Positions 2,367 to 58,679 of a stretch of DNA of 64,000 nt are shown here, piece by piece; the first letter of the stretch is position 1; every line of letters starts with the position of its first letter. Under the pieces are notes generated by a model. It saw only the letters and a program-made list of their open reading frames with translations, was not told where the DNA came from and made no database searches. The translations under genes and the position numbers were made by a program. Origin of the DNA: Rugalucina vietnamica (lineage: Eukaryota; Mollusca; Bivalvia; Lucinida; Lucinidae); assembly GCA_964017185.1 (NCBI GenBank), contig OZ024869.1:54648761-54712760 (forward strand), written 5' to 3'.

Positions 2367-3454
2367 AAATGGTGCACCCACACAAGATTTGGGAAAAAGT
2401 GCGCATCTTAACCAAATTTCGGTTTATGTTCATACCATGAGAGAGAACGTAAAAATAAGGCAAATGCAAATTTTGTTCACACTGTGTATCTATTAGCCAA
2501 GTTATGCCACATTTTCGATGAGGCGTTTTTATTGACGTCAGTATATTTGTTCAGATATGGACATATATATATTTATTATTCGTTGCGATATTATTGGTTT
2601 TAACAGAGTATATACATGTATAGCTTATATCGCTGCATATATGGTAAAGTTCATTGATTTTGTCATGAGTTTTTCGTTTGGATTTGGTTATGTAAGTACC
2701 GATGCGATTTGTTCATGAATTTCGTGATTTATATATTGTTTTTCGTCCATTATGACTATAAATAGTCTTGGTTTTGAGGGCTTGGTCATTCGAGGCTTGA
2801 CAGACCGTTAAGGAGTATTTCTGTGTTGTGGAAGTTCGTTTGCCCGCTCCCCGACCCCTGAGAGGGAATCAAGTAGTTAAGGTCTGAATTATATACATGC
2901 TACGTGAAAAATGAAACCAAAAGATATCGCAACGTTTATAAATATCATTTGACAAGATATTTATATCTTCAGTTCGTTTCAGATTGCCTGTTCTGATAGT
3001 GAGGTTGGATAGATGGATGTGTTTAGGTTGAGTCAGTGATGTGTTCCGAACTATATAAACTGCCCAGTGTGAGCTTAACCAGAGAAAAAGTGAACTTTCA
3101 TGTTTGTGTTAAGGAACTTTGAACTTTTCCACTTCATATTAATGTGGATTCTGGAACTACATCGAGATGGATATATGGTTGCTGGCTGTATAAATTTCAT
3201 TGTATGTGAATTTGTTTATTCGAATAAATAGAATTTGCTCCGGGTCTGTGCTAGCCATCACAAACGTATATTTTTGTTTAGTTGTCTTTCGATTGCGTTA
3301 AAGATGCAACACAGAGAAGTATGCATGGCTATGACTAACATGTAAACAGTTAAGATGTTGTTCAGGTATTGGTACATGTATGTTGTAGCCAATGGGTACT
3401 TTAAACTGTTACATCTTGTTTCCCCAATAAAAGAGATAAGATAATAAATAATTT
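2367..3454. other. Unassigned non-coding sequence
   Basis: No open frame with protein character and no repeat boundary could be identified. It is AT-rich with a short (AT)n tract near 2565-2580. Confidence 0.4.
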
Positions 3455-6199: not shown

Positions 6200-6685
6200 T
6201 TTTTTTAACAAGAACTCCGCGGAGGTCGATATCGCACCTGCATCGGGCAAAGTCAATAAGCCGTGAAATATAGTTCAAGGGCACCGGGTCAAGGTGCGTG
6301 CTTGAAGGGCATGTCAAGGACAATTACTATGCAAGGTTTCAGACTCGCAGCTATCTCTGATGTCGAGAAAAACAAACCTCGACGTAAAAATTTTCAAAGT
6401 CAGTGGACCGTGAAATATAGGTCAAGGGCACCAGGTTAAGGTGCGTGCTTGAAGGGTATGTCAAGGACAATTACTATGCAAGGTTTCAGACTTGCAGCTA
6501 TCTCTGATGTCGAGAAAACCAAACTTCGACGTAAAAATTATCAAAGTCAGTGGACCGTGAAATATAGGTCAAGGGCACCGGGTTAAGGTGCGTGCTTGAA
6601 GGGTATGTCAAGGACAATTACTATGCAAGGTTTCAGACTCACAGCTATCTCTGATGTCGAGAAAACTAAACTTCGACGTAAATGT
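6200..6685 (+). repeat. 146-bp tandem repeat, three units
   Basis: The phrase CCGTGAAATATA recurs at about 6261, 6408 and 6554, each followed by 'GGGCACCGGGT', 'GTCAAGGACAATTACTATGC', and 'GATGTCGAGAAAA'. Units two and three are almost identical. The array runs into a (GAAC/GGAC)n tract at 6688-6730 and appears to belong to the inverted-repeat element that follows. Confidence 0.85.
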
Positions 6686-14467: not shown

Positions 14468-15644
14468 CTAGAAAAAGTGCCTTGAGAGGCACATATACCC
14501 CCGGCTGGTGGTCACCCAGTCCTCCTTCTCCCTCCCACAACCACCCAGCACATATACACCCCTGACATTGAATCACATATCCCGAACAAAAGACAGTACC
14601 CTTATCAAATACTTTATAGAAGTGTGCATTCTAAAGCACTTTGACCACAGACATGAGGGAGTGTAGTTTTTAGAGTGACATATCTTCTTTAGAGCAGTAC
14701 ACAGAGCTGACTTGTGTACTCCATCTAGGACTTAATCACGGACATTGAGGGTCAGGTCCTCAGTCCTAGATGGAAAATGAAAATAGAATGTCAGTCTAAA
14801 TTAAAAAAAAAAAAAAAAAATAGTAATAATAAAAGTATTGATGTCCTAGATCTTGAACTCAAGCGCCCCCTCCCCCCCCACCCCCCGACATGGACCCAAC
14901 CCTATACCCTATAGGGTATTTATAGTCCAAATATGAATGGCTTCTGATGATTGGCTCATGAGATATACCCCACTAGAGAAACTTTAACCAAAACTTTGAC
15001 GCAAACTAAAGGTGACCTAGAATTTGAACTCTAGCCCCACCCCCGGGCATGGACCCTGGGGTCCAAAATCATAGAAACAAAGCTAACCCTATAGGGTACC
15101 TATAGTCCAAATATGAATGGTTTCTGATATATAGTTCATGAGATATACACCAATAGAGAAACTTTAACCAAAACTTTGACGCAAATTAAAGGTGACCTAA
15201 ATTTTGAACTCTATCCCCACCCCCGGGCATGAACCCTGGGGTCCAAAATCATAGACACAAAGCTAACCCTATAGGGTACCTATAGTCCAAATATGAATGG
15301 TTTCTGATATATAGTTCATGAGATATACACCAATAGAGAAACTTTAACCTAAACTTTGACGCAAATTAAAGGTGACCTAGATTTTGAACTCTAGCCCCAC
15401 CCCCGGGCATGGACCCTGGGGTCCAAACTCAAAGAAACAAAGCCAACCCTATAGAGTACCTATAGTCCAAATATGAATGGTTTCTGATATTTAGTTCATG
15501 AGATATACACCAGCAGAGAAACTTTAACCAAAACTTTGACATTTTAACTGAACTAACGAACCAACGAACTAACGAACATACGAACGGACGAACGGAAAAG
15601 CGAAAACTATATACCCCTCGGCATAAATGCCGGGGGTATAATGA
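14468..15644 (-). mobile_element. Helitron-like family B, copy 3, in the ASB intron
   Basis: On the minus strand it starts TCATTATACCCCCGGC (15644 downwards, preceded by A). It ends with hairpin GTGCC/GGCAC, TTTTT, CTAG at 14471-14468, followed by T. Inside are exact 180-bp tandem units: GGTGACCTA recurs at 15011, 15191 and 15371, with a diverged fourth unit from about 14870. There is a poly-A tract at 14803-14820 and an (AACGAAC)n tract at 15550-15590. It lies wholly within the intron 14374-16336. Confidence 0.8.
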
Positions 15645-21739: not shown

Positions 21740-22640
21740 AGAAAAAATGCAACTCATACAAAAGCTTTTACACGATTGGCGACAGGCAAATGTAGTCGGT
21801 ATTTCAGAAAGGTGAGATATATGATGCAGCTAATTATCGACCAGTGTCCCTTACTTGTATCTTTTGCAAAACTCTAGAGCATATAATAGTCAGCAACATA
21901 AACAAGCACTTGGCTCTTGAAAACATTTTGCTGACTGTCAACATGGGTTCCGAAGTCAAAGGTCTTGCGAAACCCAGTTAGTATAGTTTTATCATGACTT
22001 GGTTAGTTATCTGGATCGAGCTGTGAGTCGTGGCCACAGGCAGACAGACGTGATTGTCATGGATTTCGCTAAGGCCTTTGACAAGGTCCCACATAAAAGG
22101 TTATCATACAAACTAAGGCAACTAAGACTTTGGGTTTTCTTCGGCGCAATTTGGCACTGGCACCTAGGCAAACTAAGGAAGTTGCATACAAAACATTGGT
22201 TCGTCCTCAGCTTGAGTATGCATCTCCTATTTGGCATCTCTATAATGAAACTCAGACCGCTAGGGTGGAGAAGGTGCGGAGGACTGCTGCCTGGTGGACC
22301 TGCAGGAGATGGAGGAACACCAGTAGGGTGGGTGATATGCTACACGAACTTGAGTGGCCATCCCTGGGGTCCCGCAGGGAGCGGTCCTCCTTAACCTTCT
22401 TCTACAAAATACACTCCGGTACAGTGTCTCTTGATAAAGGCAAATACCTGATCCCGGCACCCAACCTAACGCGTACTCGGGCATCTTATGAATCACAATA
22501 CACAAGACCATTTTGCCTATAGTGATGCCCGGAAACATTCCCTTTTCCCCAGAACTATTCCGGTTTGGAATAGTCTCCCTTTTTCAGTAGTCTCATCTGA
22601 GACCATGGAGGAATTTAAGGCTTCTATTTAAATCATTGGC
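21740..22640 (+). pseudogene. Non-LTR retrotransposon reverse transcriptase, internally deleted
   Basis: Frame-hopping translation gives, in order, NYRPVSLT, (L)TVNMGS in place of the TD.QHGFR region, DVIVMDFAKAFDKVPHKRL (RT motif A), then abruptly LGFLRRNLALAPRQTKEVAY, LVRPQLEYASPIW and SRRERSSLTFFYKIHSGTV of the C-terminal part of CR1/jockey-type LINE proteins. The block between motif A and the thumb, which should hold the catalytic (Y/F)ADD, is missing, so the element is dead. It has at least two frameshifts. 22641-22808 may be its 3' end, with a (GATA)n tail at about 22790-22806. Confidence 0.85.
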
Positions 22641-22807: not shown

Positions 22808-25800
22808 ATAACCAGAGGACCATTGGTCCTGAGAACGCTCACCTGAAGCCTGATCTTGGAGTATTAAGTCATCATGAAATGACCTTGACCTTGAATACTC
22901 ACACACCTTTACTGACTTCATAAGTTGTCTGCATCTGCAAAGTTCCAGGTCTCAGGCTGCAATAGTTTCCAAACCCAGTGATTTCTGAGAAAACCATAAT
23001 TTCAATTCTGATAATCAAATGACCTGGGGTCAAGGTCAAGAAATGACCTTGGCCTTCATTAACTACTTACCTTCATTGACTCCATTAGTTGTCTGCATCT
23101 AGCAACTTTCAGGTCTCAGGCTGCACCAGTTTCCAAAATATCCACTGTTTTCGCCTTTTCCCATGTAAAAGCCTATGTTTCCAAAATTTAAATTGCCGTA
23201 AAATAGGTTGCATCCTAGGGTCATTATTTCAACAAACTATGATGGGCTGGAGTCCCAAATGCTACATACCAAGTTTCGCGAAAATCGGCCTGCCGGTTCT
23301 GGAGAAGAAGATTTTTGAGTGGTTTTTACCATAGTTGGGCATGGCGGCCATCTTGGTCATGTGACCCGAATTTCGAGATCAAACTTTTGTTCCCCCTATC
23401 CATAGACGCTCCACATAAAATTTCACTTTGATTGGCTGAGCAGTTTCAGAGAAGAAGATCTTTGAAAAGTGTGTATGGACGACAGACTGGCCAAGGTCAA
23501 GAGATGACCTTGACCTAAATTAATCACATACCTTCATCTACTTCATTAGTTGTTTGCATCTACCACTTTTCAAGCATCAGGCTGCAATAGTTTTCAAAAA
23601 ATCCAGTTTTCACTTTTTCTTATGTAAAAGCCTATGTTTCCAAAATTGACCTTGCCGTTAAATATGTCAAGGTCATCCTAGGGTCATCATTTTATCAAAC
23701 TATGATGGACTGGAGTCCCAAATGCTACATATCAAGTTTCATGAAAATCGGCCTGCCGGTTCTGGAGAAGAAGATTTTTGAGTGTTTTTTTTTACCATAT
23801 ATGGGCGTGGCGGCCATCTTGGTAATGTGACCTGGATTTCGCGATCAAACTTTCGTCTCCCCTACCCATGGATGCTCCACATAAAATTTCACTTTGATTG
23901 GCCCAGCAGTTTCAGAAAAGAAGATCTTTGAAAAGTGTGTATGGACGACAGACTGGCCAAGGTCAAGAGATGACCTTGACCTAAATTAATCACATACCTT
24001 CATCTACTCTATTAGTTGTTTGCATCTACCACTTTTCAAGCATCAGGCTGCAATAGTTTTCAAAAAATCCAGTTTTCACTTTTTCCCATGTAAAAGCCTA
24101 TGTTTCCAAAATTGACCTGGCCGTAAAATATGTCAATGTCATCCTAGGGTCATCATTTTATCAAACTATGATGGGCTGGAGTCCCAAATGCTACATACCA
24201 AGTTTCATGAAAATCGGCCGGCCGGTTCTGGAGAAGAAGATTTTTGAGTGGTTTTTATCATATATGGGCGTGGCAGCCATCTTGGTCATGTGACCTGGAT
24301 TTTGCGATCAAACTTTTGTCTCCCCTACCCATGGATGCTCCACATAAAAATTCACTTTGATTGGCTGAGCAGTTTCAGAGAAGAAGATCTTTGAAAAGTG
24401 TCCAAGGTCAAGAGATGACCTTGACCTACATTAATCACATACCTCCATCTACTCCATTAGTTGTTTGCATCTACCACTTTTCAGGCATCAGGCTGCTATA
24501 GTTTTCAAAAAATCCACAGTTTTCACCTTTTCCCATGTTAAAGCCTATGTTTCCAAAATTGACCTTGCCGTAAATTAGGTCAAGGTCATCCTAGGGTCAT
24601 CATTTTATCAAACTATGATGGACTGGAGTCCCAAATGATACATACCAAGTTTCATGAAAATCGGCCTGCCGGTTCTGGAGAAGAAGATTTTTGAGTGGTC
24701 TTTACCATATATGGGCGTGGCGGCCATCTTGGTCATGTGACCTGGATTTCGCGATCAAACTTTCGTCTCCCCTACCCATGGATGCTCCACAGAAAATTTC
24801 ACTTTGATTCGCCCAGCAGTTTCAGAGAAGAAAATCTTTGAAAAGTGTGAATGGACGACAGACTGGCCAAGGTCAAGAGATGACCTTGACCTAAATTAAT
24901 CACATACCTTCATCTACTCCATTAGTTGTTTGCATCTACCACTTTTCAGGCCTCAGGCTGCAATAGTTTTAAAAAAAGTCCATAGTTTTCACTTTTTCTT
25001 ATGTAAAAGCCTATGTTTCCAAAATTGACCTTGCCGTAAAATAGGTCAAGGTCATCCAAGGGTCATCATTTTATCAAACTATGATGCGCTGAAGTCCCCG
25101 ATGCTACATACCAAGTTTCGTGGAAATCGGCCCACTGGTTCTGGAGAAGAAGATTTTTGAAGGGTTTTTACCCTATATGGGCGTGGCGGCCATCTTGGTC
25201 ATGTGACCTGTATTATGCGATGAAACTTGAAATGCCACTACCCAAGGAGGATCCACATAAAATTTCAACTAGATCGGCCAAGCGGTTTCAGAGAAGAAGA
25301 TCTTTGCAATTGTGGACGACGGACGGACGGACGCCGGATCATGGCCATCCTATAAGCTCACCTTGTGAGCCTTCGGCTCAGGTGAGCTAAAATTCATAGT
25401 TTTCACTTTTTCCCATGTAAAAGCCTATGTTTCCGAATTTGACCTTGCCGTAAAATAGGTCATGGTCATCCTAGGGTCATCATTTTATCAAACTAAGATG
25501 AGCTGAGGTCCCCAATGCTACATGCCAAGTTTCGTGAAAATCGGCTTGCCGGTTCTGGAGAAGAAGATTTTTGAGTGGTTTTTACCATATATGGGCATGG
25601 CGGCCATCTTGGTCATGTGACCTGGATTTCACTATCAAACTTTCGTCTCCTTTACCCATGTATACTCCACATAAAATTTCACTTTGATTGACCAATCAGT
25701 TTCAGAGAAGAAGATCTTTGAAAAGTGTGTATGGACAACAGACTGGCCAAGGTCAAGAGATGACCTTGACCTATATTAATCATATACCTTCATCTACTCC

Positions 25801-30465: not shown

Positions 30466-31940
30466 CAAATCAAATCAAATCAAATATCTTTATTGGTTTT
30501 AAAATCCAGAAACAGGATTGTTACGAACTACATACAAACATACATAATACTAAACATACAAACAGCAAATGATTTAAATATGCATTACACGTATCTCTGA
30601 TTAACTTAATACAACATTTTATGGTATCTATGACTAAATTAATGACTGGAATGGTATCTATGACCGTAATACTAAAATGGTATCTTTGATCTTAATAATA
30701 TACAACTATGACTAGGACGATACAAGGTATCTACATGTATGACCAACTTAATACGACATTTATGTTATCTATGGCCAAATTAACGACTGGGATGGTATCT
30801 ATGACCTTAATACTGGAATGGTATCTATGACCTTAATAATATACAACTCAAACTAGAACTATATAAAGTATCTATGACCAACTTAATACAACATTTTTAT
30901 GGTATCTACGACAAAATTAACGACTGGGATGGTATATATGACCTTAATACTGGAATGGTATCTATGACCTTAATAATATACAACTCAGACTAGGACTATA
31001 TAAGGTATCTATGACCAACTTAATACAACATTTTTATGGTATCTATGACAAAATTTATGACTGGAATGGTATCTATGACCTTAATAATATACAACTCAGA
31101 CAAGGACTATAAAAGGTATCTATGACCAACTCAGTACAATATTTTATGGTATCTATGACCAAATTTATGACTGGAATGGTATATATGACCTTAATAATAA
31201 TACAACTCAGACTAGGATTTAACAAATTAACCTTAAAAGAAGCAAACATTATTAATGCCAATGCAAGTAACTAGTATATCTGAACAATTGGATCAATCAT
31301 TCAAATTCACATGATTACATTTCCATGGTATCTATGAACAGATGTGTGACTAAAAAAAAATCTATCACAGATGTAATAATACTAAAATTGTGGAATGATA
31401 TCTATAAGACAAACTATTTCAATAAAACTAGCACATACCAATTTAACCTGTATGAAATCTAAATTTTGCCTATAGTTTGTAATGTCTATGAAAAGGCAAT
31501 ACCAGCTATGAAAAAATTGTATCAATTAGAGATAGTAACATTATCTATTAAATCTTCTCTAATTTTGAACATCTTGTGAATATGGGAAATGCATATACTA
31601 AGCACGTCATATTCTTTATTCTGTAAAATGAATCTAAATTTTTCAGATTCACCCATATTTATGAAAGATGGGATAGCCTTTTCCAACTCTGTGAAAACAT
31701 TTAAAGATTGGCACTGTAATGAAAATGAGATTCTGTTTCTATATCAGCTTTACACAAAGGACATAATCGCTCGTTAACAGCTTTATTTTTGTGTCTACCC
31801 TTTTCAATTTGGAGACTATGTGCACTAACACGTAATTTTGCAAAAGATGTAATATATTCCTTAGGCAAATCATTTATTTGCAAATACATTTCTTTATCAT
31901 ACTTAACTTTAAAAGTTCTAAATGTAAAATGAACATGCAT
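30466..31940 (-). pseudogene. Second LINE fragment with (CAAAT)n tail and internal minisatellite
   Basis: On the minus strand 31940-31560 encodes LPKEYITSFAKLRVSAHSLQ, IEKGRHKN, RLCPLCKADIETESHFHY and then, in another frame, FRFILQNKEYDVLSICISHI. This matches the C-terminal region of the LINE at 27713-28888 (KLRISAHDLMIERRRYF, VCPECNQVEDEIHF). The 3' end has AATAAAGATA followed by ATTTG repeats (30466-30488). Between them the 3' region is occupied by a minisatellite. Frameshifted and not functional. Confidence 0.8.
30600..31230. repeat. Minisatellite, ~105-bp units containing GGTATCTATGACC
   Basis: The motif ATGGTATCTATGACC, followed by TTAATAATATACAACTCAGA and CTAGGACTATATAAGGTATC, recurs about five times with progressive divergence. 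It lies within the 3' untranslated part of the second LINE. Confidence 0.85.
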
Positions 31941-55991: not shown

Positions 55992-57239
55992 TGAGCAATC
56001 TGCCAAGAATGGGTGGGAATTCAATTGGTATATGCAAATTAACGCCAGTAAATCTCAAGTCCCAAATCCCACAAAACCATACAGTTACATGATGAAAGTG
56101 GTAACAAGTGCCCGATACCTGGGTGTTTACACTGCAACTGATTTGTTCTGGAAAGCCCATGCTATCAGTTATCAACAGTGCAAAGAAATCACTGGGCTTC
56201 GAAGAGACAAACTTAACATAAGAAAACACCTCATAATAAAAACATACACATATGGCTATAGTAAGACCCCAACTGGAGTTTGCTATTGTAAGACCCCAAC
56301 TGGAGTTGGCTATATGTAAGACCTCAAACTGGAGTTGGCTATAGTAACCCCAATTTTTGCTGGTTATTGTAAGACCCCAACTGGAGATGGCTATTGTAAG
56401 ACACCAACTTGAGTTGGTGATAATAAGACCTCAACTGGAGTTGGCTTTTGTAAGACCCCAACTGGAGTTGGCTATTGTAAGACACCAACTGGAGTTGGCT
56501 TTTGTAAGACCCCAACTGGAGTTGGCTATGGTAAGACCCCAACTGGAGTTGGCTATTGTAAGACCCCAACTGGAGTTGGCCATTGTAAGACCACCAACTG
56601 GAGATGGCTATTGTAAGACCCCAACTGGAGTTGGCTATCGTAACACCTCAACTGGAGTTTGCTATTGCTATTGGAGTTTGCCAACTGGAGTTGGCTATCG
56701 TAAGACGTTAACTGGCTGGCTATTGTAAGACCCCAACTGGAGTTGGCCATCGTAAGACCTCAACTGGAGTTGGCTATTGCAAGACCACAACTGGAGTTGG
56801 CTATGGTAAGACCCCAACTGGAATTGGCTATTGTAAGACCACAACTGGGGTATACGGCTCCAGTGTGGGATCCACATAAAAACGAACAAAAAAATGAATA
56901 ACATGTAATAGTGTCCCGAAACAGAATGCTCGGGTCCCTGTGGATTACTCCCCCTACTCAAGTGTCCTGGACACGATGCCCATGAGCAGTGGCGTACTGA
57001 CTCAAGAATACCCCTCTTTTATAAGATCATATATGGTTATACATGTACCGATACCTCTACCTTCGTATATATCATTCGTATATCATTCCAGTCCCGTTTG
57101 TGTCAATCACTGGCTTACAGACAGGTATCTGCGAAGATTGACTACTATAAATGCTCATCTTGCAGTTATTCAGAGACATAACTATCCAGCATCTCCCGCA
57201 AACGTTACTGATTTTGACAGCTTAGTACGAGCTGTGTGA
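55992..57239 (+). pseudogene. LINE reverse transcriptase C-terminal region interrupted by its own minisatellite
   Basis: Before the repeat: NGWEFNWYMQINASKSQV and TSARYLGVYTATDLFWKAH, the post-palm region (usually W...FN.SKC and AKYLGV...DL.W), then LRRDKLNIRKHL. After the repeat: TAPVWDPHKNEQ (usual EYA..VWDPH), a frameshifted stretch, then SFIRSYMVIHVPIPLPSYIS and the C-terminal part ending at TGA 57237-57239. The 27-bp array at 56258-56850 sits exactly where the (M/L)VRPQLEYA motif belongs. At least two frame changes; not functional. Confidence 0.85.
56258..56850 (+). repeat. 27-bp minisatellite GTAAGACCCCAACTGGAGTT-GGCTATT, about 20 units
   Basis: Units start with GTAAGA at 56261, 56288 and so on to 56833. 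Most are exactly 27 bp, with point changes, two shortened units and a scrambled unit near 56665. In one frame each unit reads IVRPQLELA, the same as the LVRPQLEYA motif of the surrounding LINE. Because 27 is a multiple of three, long artefactual frames appear on both strands (56357-56728 plus; 56569-56339 minus). Confidence 0.95.
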
Positions 57240-58679
57240 AAGTTGTGCCACTCAGGACCATAGATTTTACCAAACTGATGTTTTGGTCTTTTCTCTATAA
57301 AATACCAACGCTTTGCACTTTTATTCCTTTTTTTCCTTGGCGCTGCCAAGCGCCAAGCAATTGAGACGGAACGAGGATTTCTCTTTAATCTGCGGGGTCT
57401 TTTCCTTCAATCTGTGGGGTTTCCCTTTGACAGCCAGGGGCCTGGTTCCAGTCGCAATTTTTTGCTTCTCTTGTCGCATTATAAAGCAATTAAAAACGGT
57501 AACCAGACGTTGCTCTCCGCCATTGTCATTAGGACTTGTGGGAAGAATGACGTGCTTGGCTCTAAATGTGTAACATACAGCTGGCGTTCTCGACGGATAG
57601 TACTAAAACCCGGAACTAGTCAAAGGTCCGACCATATACGAATGGTATCCATCGAGGAAGTCTTTTAGCTGCTCCACTGCATTGTCAAAAGACAACTGTT
57701 GCTCCACTGCATTGTCATAAGACAACGGCAGTAACTAACAAAATTTTACTTGCGGAAAACCTGTAAGTGGGTCAGCTCCAGCGTGGGCATTTTCCGGAGA
57801 AGCGTCTGCTAGAGGATCTAAAATTAACATATTGTTGTTACCTATAGTAGCTTCCGAACTTTATAACATTGTTTATAGCTGCACTTAGTAATAAATCTAT
57901 TGAGTATTGTTTATAATTTAAAAGCCACATTTAAACAGTGCCTAAGTTGTCTGCATGAAGCATAGCAAAAGCAAATGTTCTCAATAGTCATATTTTGGTC
58001 AACGCTTGCACATGGGATAAATGGTATTTTGTGGGCTTCTAAGTGCATTTAATACTTGGGACTTGAAGTATTTGAATTTTCGTTATCAGAGTGAGTTTTC
58101 AGCAGCTCTATAAACAGAACAGGACACTTGCAGACGCTCAGATATGACGTTGTATTTACCACAAGAATGAGCCAGTAAAAATCCAGAGCTGGCAGGTTAA
58201 GCAAAGTTCAACATTGGTTTGTGATATGGAATGGTCTAGGACGTCTTCTGCTGGGGAAGGAGTAAAACCCGGGACCAAAATCCGGGACCATTTTTTACGG
58301 TCATCAAAAAGGCACTATCATATGCGTATGCAGTTTATAAGGTCATTTCAATGATGTAAATCATCGTTTATCCAAAGAATTCGAATAATTATTTGAAATT
58401 TTGATCAAAATATGGGACCCCATATGGGAACCCATCCAAGAATTTAGATCCGGGACCAGTTTTGCAGTATAGACGAAATAATGTTTTATACAGACTAGCC
58501 AAGCGTTCCTTTTAACAAGGAAAATTTATTACTATCAGCTGTGTTTACTTTAATATGATACTCCGTTGAGGATGAAAGCCGTTTACAGTAATAAATAGAT
58601 TTTCATGCAACCGTTTTAGCTACATTATGACATTCATGCAAAATACCAATAAAAGTTTATGGTCATATTCCTTTTAGGC
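57240..58679. other. Unassigned sequence, no gene
   Basis: Short frames at 57313-57668 lack domain character. TGCTCCACTGCATTGTCA(A/T)AAGACAAC is duplicated at 57669-57724. TATGGGACCCCATATGGG at 58411-58428 is palindromic. Confidence 0.4.

Follow-up and report, generated by a model that had tools for sequence, protein, structure and literature searches.

Within the window, the whole 64,000-nucleotide stretch of Rugalucina vietnamica DNA analysed here (OZ024869.1, 54,648,761-54,712,760), a 27-bp minisatellite interrupts the coding sequence of a LINE, raising the question of whether the repeat was made from the LINE's own codons or was brought in from elsewhere. A sequence-only reading had placed about 20 units at a conserved LINE motif, each reading IVRPQLELA in one frame. 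The array in fact comprises 22 units at the IVRPQLEYA site, with LINE sequence resuming at TAPVWDPH (Table 1); the peptide is read in single units, and not in one frame along the array, where indels move it through all three frames.

Table 1 Features of the minisatellite locus and of a second LINE-like stretch in the window (window positions).
Feature	Positions	Strand	Remarks
5'-truncated, decayed LINE (non-LTR retrotransposon) fragment hosting the array	56014..57326	+	Ends are alignment ends
Left LINE flank adjoining the array (SARYLGV...KTYT), with frame-shifting indels	56098..56253	+	
Insertion of 4 bp (ACAT-like) immediately left of the array, compared with 19 aligned relatives	56246..56253	+	By eye; exact placement ambiguous
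27-bp minisatellite, 22 units, consensus GGCTATTGTAAGACCCCAACTGGAGTT (AIVRPQLEL)	56253..56851	+	Tandem Repeats Finder and wraparound parse
First unit, sharing the register of the native LINE segment	56254..56280	+	
Last unit, running on into native LINE sequence GGGTATACGGCTCCAGTGTGG	56826..56851	+	
Right LINE flank (TAPVWDPH... toward the 3' end), decayed	56852..57326	+	
Second, diverged LINE-like stretch, frameshifted, with a single LVRPQLEYA at 22196	21987..22640	+	By eye; end approximate

Tandem Repeats Finder, run on the window, reported 56253-56848 (period 27, 21.9 copies, 81% matches, 4% indels, score 775), and a wraparound parse gave 56253-56851, where 45 of the 590 cells compared (7.6%) are substitutions relative to the consensus; a further 4 cells are gaps, and 9 bases are inserted. 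Damage affects units 5, 17 and 18 in the numbering of this parse. Pairwise, units differ by 12.8% on average, and many carry private changes. The consensus, read from GCT, gives A-I-V-R-P-Q-L-E-L, and its head-to-tail arrangement and 27-bp length fall within the 10-100 bp range by which TE-derived minisatellites are defined. Neighbouring units are no more similar than distant ones (in 99% of permutations the mean distance is no greater than that observed), so stepwise growth has left no trace. The right junction of the first unit (GAGTTTGCTATT) is one of the two nearest to native TATGC. A start of the Taylor-Breden type, as described in PMC3389668, would leave an incomplete terminal unit; here 26/27 positions are filled in the last unit before native sequence returns, in a locus that is heavily decayed. 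The left edge is, on sequence comparison, not perfectly clean, owing to the 4-bp insertion. Because one third of all lengths are divisible by 3, and because frameshifts occur in both array and flanks, no claim of reading-frame selection on the 27-bp length is made; nothing seen suggests a function or spread of the array.

Both flanks of the array align to LINE copies elsewhere in the genome. The host fragment matches the relative L002 at 1229-1275, 1343-1530 and 1501/1505-2032, and L002, the one relative scanned for RVT_1, has a 423-residue open frame with this domain (E 4.9e-31) and the stretch KAYKAIVRPQLEYAAPVWDPH. Judging from the motif, the host LINE may be CR1/Jockey-like. The host copy is old: its identity to relatives is 66-75% over longer alignments, with many indels. 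Pfam searches with two flank peptides returned a chance-level match alone (DUF2680, E 0.17), a search of solved structures gave only weak matches (best E 0.23), all to a protease without relation to the LINE, and neither the array nor relatives of the LINE occurred in the bacterial and archaeal genomes, viral contigs, phages and plasmids searched.

A search of the host genome (1.09 Gb, 47 contigs) with 55992-57239 recovered, besides the window, 33 pieces distributed over 19 further places (34 matches in total). In all 19 relatives aligned, the part made up of left flank and first unit (query up to 292) overlaps the part made up of last unit and right flank (query from 835) by one unit, and the motif site of each is AAGGCCATTGTCAGACCCCAACTGGAGTATGCAGCTCCAGTGTGG, with small variations. 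A pattern search allowing up to 3 mismatches found 20 native sites, 18 of them in relatives already in the set and 2 that were added, giving 21 copies in all; one relative (L031) has four mismatches at the native site and hence lies outside the 20. The core motif (up to 3 substitutions) occurs exactly once in the LINE strand of every one of the 21 relatives, compared with 17 occurrences in the window, all within the array. L007 has one extra core motif, on the opposite strand and ~1.35 kb away, thus not in tandem. An array carried as an internal tandem repeat of the TE family, as in LTR12, is present in 0/21. A genome search with the right flank revealed no closer relative of the host LINE and added one piece (C8:6523079-6523440) that stops short of the motif. 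Relatives share up to 1,433 bp, with at least 99% identity among the youngest copies.

Some of these relatives have features of their own. Five copies on several contigs (L003, L004, L006, L007 and L023) are 98.6-99.8% identical to L002, start at one shared internal point (L002 position 708) and end near 2136-2140, looking as if a fixed 1.43-kb piece were spreading. Downstream of the LINE piece in L002, a 323-residue open frame (2464-3432) without a Pfam match at E 0.01 looks, by eye, like a LINE endonuclease.

Uniqueness of the array was assessed with a search tool that scores best candidates only, so that its counts are lower bounds. All 13 hits of a 37-bp tandem probe (up to 3 mismatches; reversed-pattern control, 0) and all 5 matches of a 164-bp array probe are in this locus, and the best candidates scored place the 27-bp array nowhere else in the genome. 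A four-unit peptide search (E up to 10) gave 25 matches, comprising 6 here, 11 in an array on C14 (E down to 5.7e-4), which are much weaker than those at the locus, and 8 at three other places. Weaker peptide matches include C14:38.93-38.94 Mb (4) and C13:49.28 Mb (3).

Two further 27-bp arrays were examined. That on C14 (31701687-31704499; L061 4188-7000) is a satellite of ~106 copies with an 81-bp higher-order period, reading AVHRPQLP*, while that on C10 (from 38642500 or before; L062) has ~90 copies in the stretch examined and a 54-bp higher order. When each unit was compared with the array unit by ungapped rotation, the observed value was reached by 256/2000 (C14) and 195/2000 (C10) shuffles, and the gapped local score by 649/2000 and 49/2000, respectively; the C10 unit would thus show a weak resemblance at most. 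Neither stretch matched the L002 LINE frame in tblastn at E 1 or better. The C14 array was rejected as a second case, its DNA being no closer than shuffles and no LINE frame surrounding it.

The native segment, GCC ATT GTC AGA CCC CAA CTG GAG TAT, encodes A I V R P Q L E Y, and the unit is identical to it at 24/27 positions, in register and without rotation, a value reached by 0/2000 shuffles, whatever the rotation or strand. In the valine codon, the third base is A in all 21 units with a base there (GTA) and C in the relatives (GTC); GGCT is found in 19/22 units, where the relatives have GGCC or AGCC, except for L027 with GGCT. Being common to the units, the GTA and GGCT changes predate amplification. 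The ninth codon is changed in most units, from TAT to TTG, and the 17 unit junctions readable by pattern are TTGGC (13), ATGGC (2) and TTTGC (2, one of them the first junction), compared with native TATGC. Flanks differ from L002 at 85/450 sites (18.9%) at codon positions 1 and 2, in a count that runs past the stop codon into untranslated 3' sequence. Set against this, the 7.6% divergence of the units would crudely place amplification ~60% along the decay, an estimate that takes account of neither homogenisation nor changes in L002 itself.

Could a foreign 27-bp satellite have been inserted into the LINE, resembling the motif by chance? The arrays on C14 and C10 show that other 27-bp arrays exist in the genome, but their units are not clearly closer to the array unit than shuffles are, no shuffle attains the in-register match between unit and native LINE segment, and insertion is contradicted by the single-unit (empty) sites, leaving this origin with virtually no chance of being correct. 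Nor is the array at all likely to be an assembly artefact: it is known from one assembly, but the mean unit difference and the many private changes would not be expected of a copying artefact. Slightly more credible, though still improbable, is expansion in an active LINE master copy, from which the array would have been copied here along with the LINE. Within the eight codons A I V R P Q L E, most units share two substitutions, GCC to GCT and GTC to GTA, both synonymous, as if the segment had been under protein selection at the first duplication. However, with ~19% change in the flanks, an absence of replacements in eight codons would not be improbable if amplification came midway, the ninth codon did change in most units, and the array is missing from all 21 relatives and unique in the genome as searched.

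Related copies thus have one unit where the host copy has many, in register with both flanks, and this array was found nowhere else in the genome as searched. Given the single-unit relatives, the lack of this array elsewhere as searched and the 24/27 match in register, expansion in place is well supported: the nine-codon segment was very probably expanded within one old LINE copy, the array being neither a foreign satellite nor a trait of the LINE family. The sequence-only reading had also favoured expansion in place over insertion, and had named as contrary evidence LINE copies lacking the motif at this site and wide occurrence of the satellite outside LINE contexts. Both checks favoured that reading: the motif is in place, once, in all 21 relatives, and the best candidates scored include no copy of this array elsewhere. 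Since the closest relatives are just ~66-75% identical over longer flank alignments, the immediate source subfamily was not found, and an extinct or unscored LINE subfamily could still conceivably have carried the expansion.

Expansion in place would have begun after a 5'-truncated LINE copy had landed at the locus and started to decay, amplification presumably postdating the onset of that decay. The seed may have been the nine codons GCCATTGTCAGACCCCAACTGGAGTAT, duplicated exactly when replication, repair or reverse transcription went wrong between GCC and GCA, which lie 27 bp apart. The duplicated segment would then have been amplified in this one copy to ~22 units, probably by unequal exchange, conversion or slippage between units, after which the units would have drifted apart and the array lost its common reading frame.

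What could have triggered the first duplication is less clear. Breakpoint homology in the relatives, judged by eye, is 2 bp, the GC of GCC/GCA, which repeats at 27 bp. In the classical start model, of Haber-Louis type, the initial unit is bounded by direct repeats of 5-10 bp (PMC3389668, available text); the shared GC at the unit ends here falls short of that length. According to the same source, the two established start models leave 6,817/7,276 human cases unexplained (~6% explained). When the native copy L002 1480-1588 was folded as single-stranded DNA, its plus strand formed a 12-pair hairpin (CCCAACTGGAGT-ATGCA-GCTCCAGT-g-TGGG), in which the loop ATGCA holds the putative breakpoint between TAT and GCA. 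The native fold has z -2.5 on one strand and -2.0 on the other, matched by 1/200 and 10/200 shuffles, respectively, and a 109-base array stretch folds better (z -3.5 on both strands; 1/200 shuffles each). The commonest unit type has an inverted repeat, CCAACT-GG-AGTTGG, not clearly beyond chance, as an arm of 6 is reached by 5.8% of shuffled units. Stalling at such a hairpin, in replication or target-primed reverse transcription, could begin slippage, and the commonest unit type could have acquired its own inverted repeat afterwards. A structural trigger residing in the LINE coding sequence itself is nonetheless doubtful, and we give the hairpin low weight because it was spotted post hoc and in one copy. 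In L035, another relative, a separate 13-bp duplication (TGTGGGACCCCGG, then TGTGGGACCC again; ~507-570, by eye) immediately follows the motif on its 3' side, next to the native hairpin.

Minisatellites derived from TEs at single loci are already well documented, and the array adds one clean example of this known process. In humans, 7,276 cases make up 23% of minisatellites/satellites, 5,747/5,932 clusters are single-locus and 601 cases are L1-associated, according to the available text of Ahmed and Liang (2012, PMC3389668). As described there, those arrays likewise consist of a TE segment that was multiplied in tandem in situ, whereas ours differs in its LINE coding source, its genome, its 27-bp unit, its 22 units and a divergence beyond their 95% cut-off. 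Repeats derived from part of LINE ORF2, as this one is, are also known as satellites (chicken HinfI from CR1, Phodopus PROsat and seal Pvc; PMC9659126, in the part available), but these form families, and the present array is single, small and not found elsewhere. Bivalve satellites BIV160 and HindIII share a TE origin with the array but are linked to another element class, MITE-like elements, in the accessible portions of PMC6947457 and PMC9659126. No such array is described in the available portions of PMC8392823 or PMC10294476; a search of the titles and abstract openings of the papers listed yielded no description of the array repeat, which is no proof of its absence from print, and none of the peptide RPQLEYA.

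The locus documents the states before and after expansion with unusual clarity: 21 sister copies preserve the empty site, the source protein motif can still be recognised, and the unit and both edges are readable to a few bases. Loci of this kind let the start of a minisatellite be studied, although this one alone leaves the general picture unchanged; the broader proposal that bivalve minisatellites are seeded in this way found no support beyond one locus, and no spread was seen.

Elsewhere in the window, the second LINE-like stretch was considered as possible kin of the host LINE and set aside, as it shows no DNA alignment to the host LINE flanks. Other tandem arrays lie at 6261-6682, 14906-15540, 23031-25306 and 30591-31217, with periods of 147, 180, 466 and 111-137 bp, respectively.
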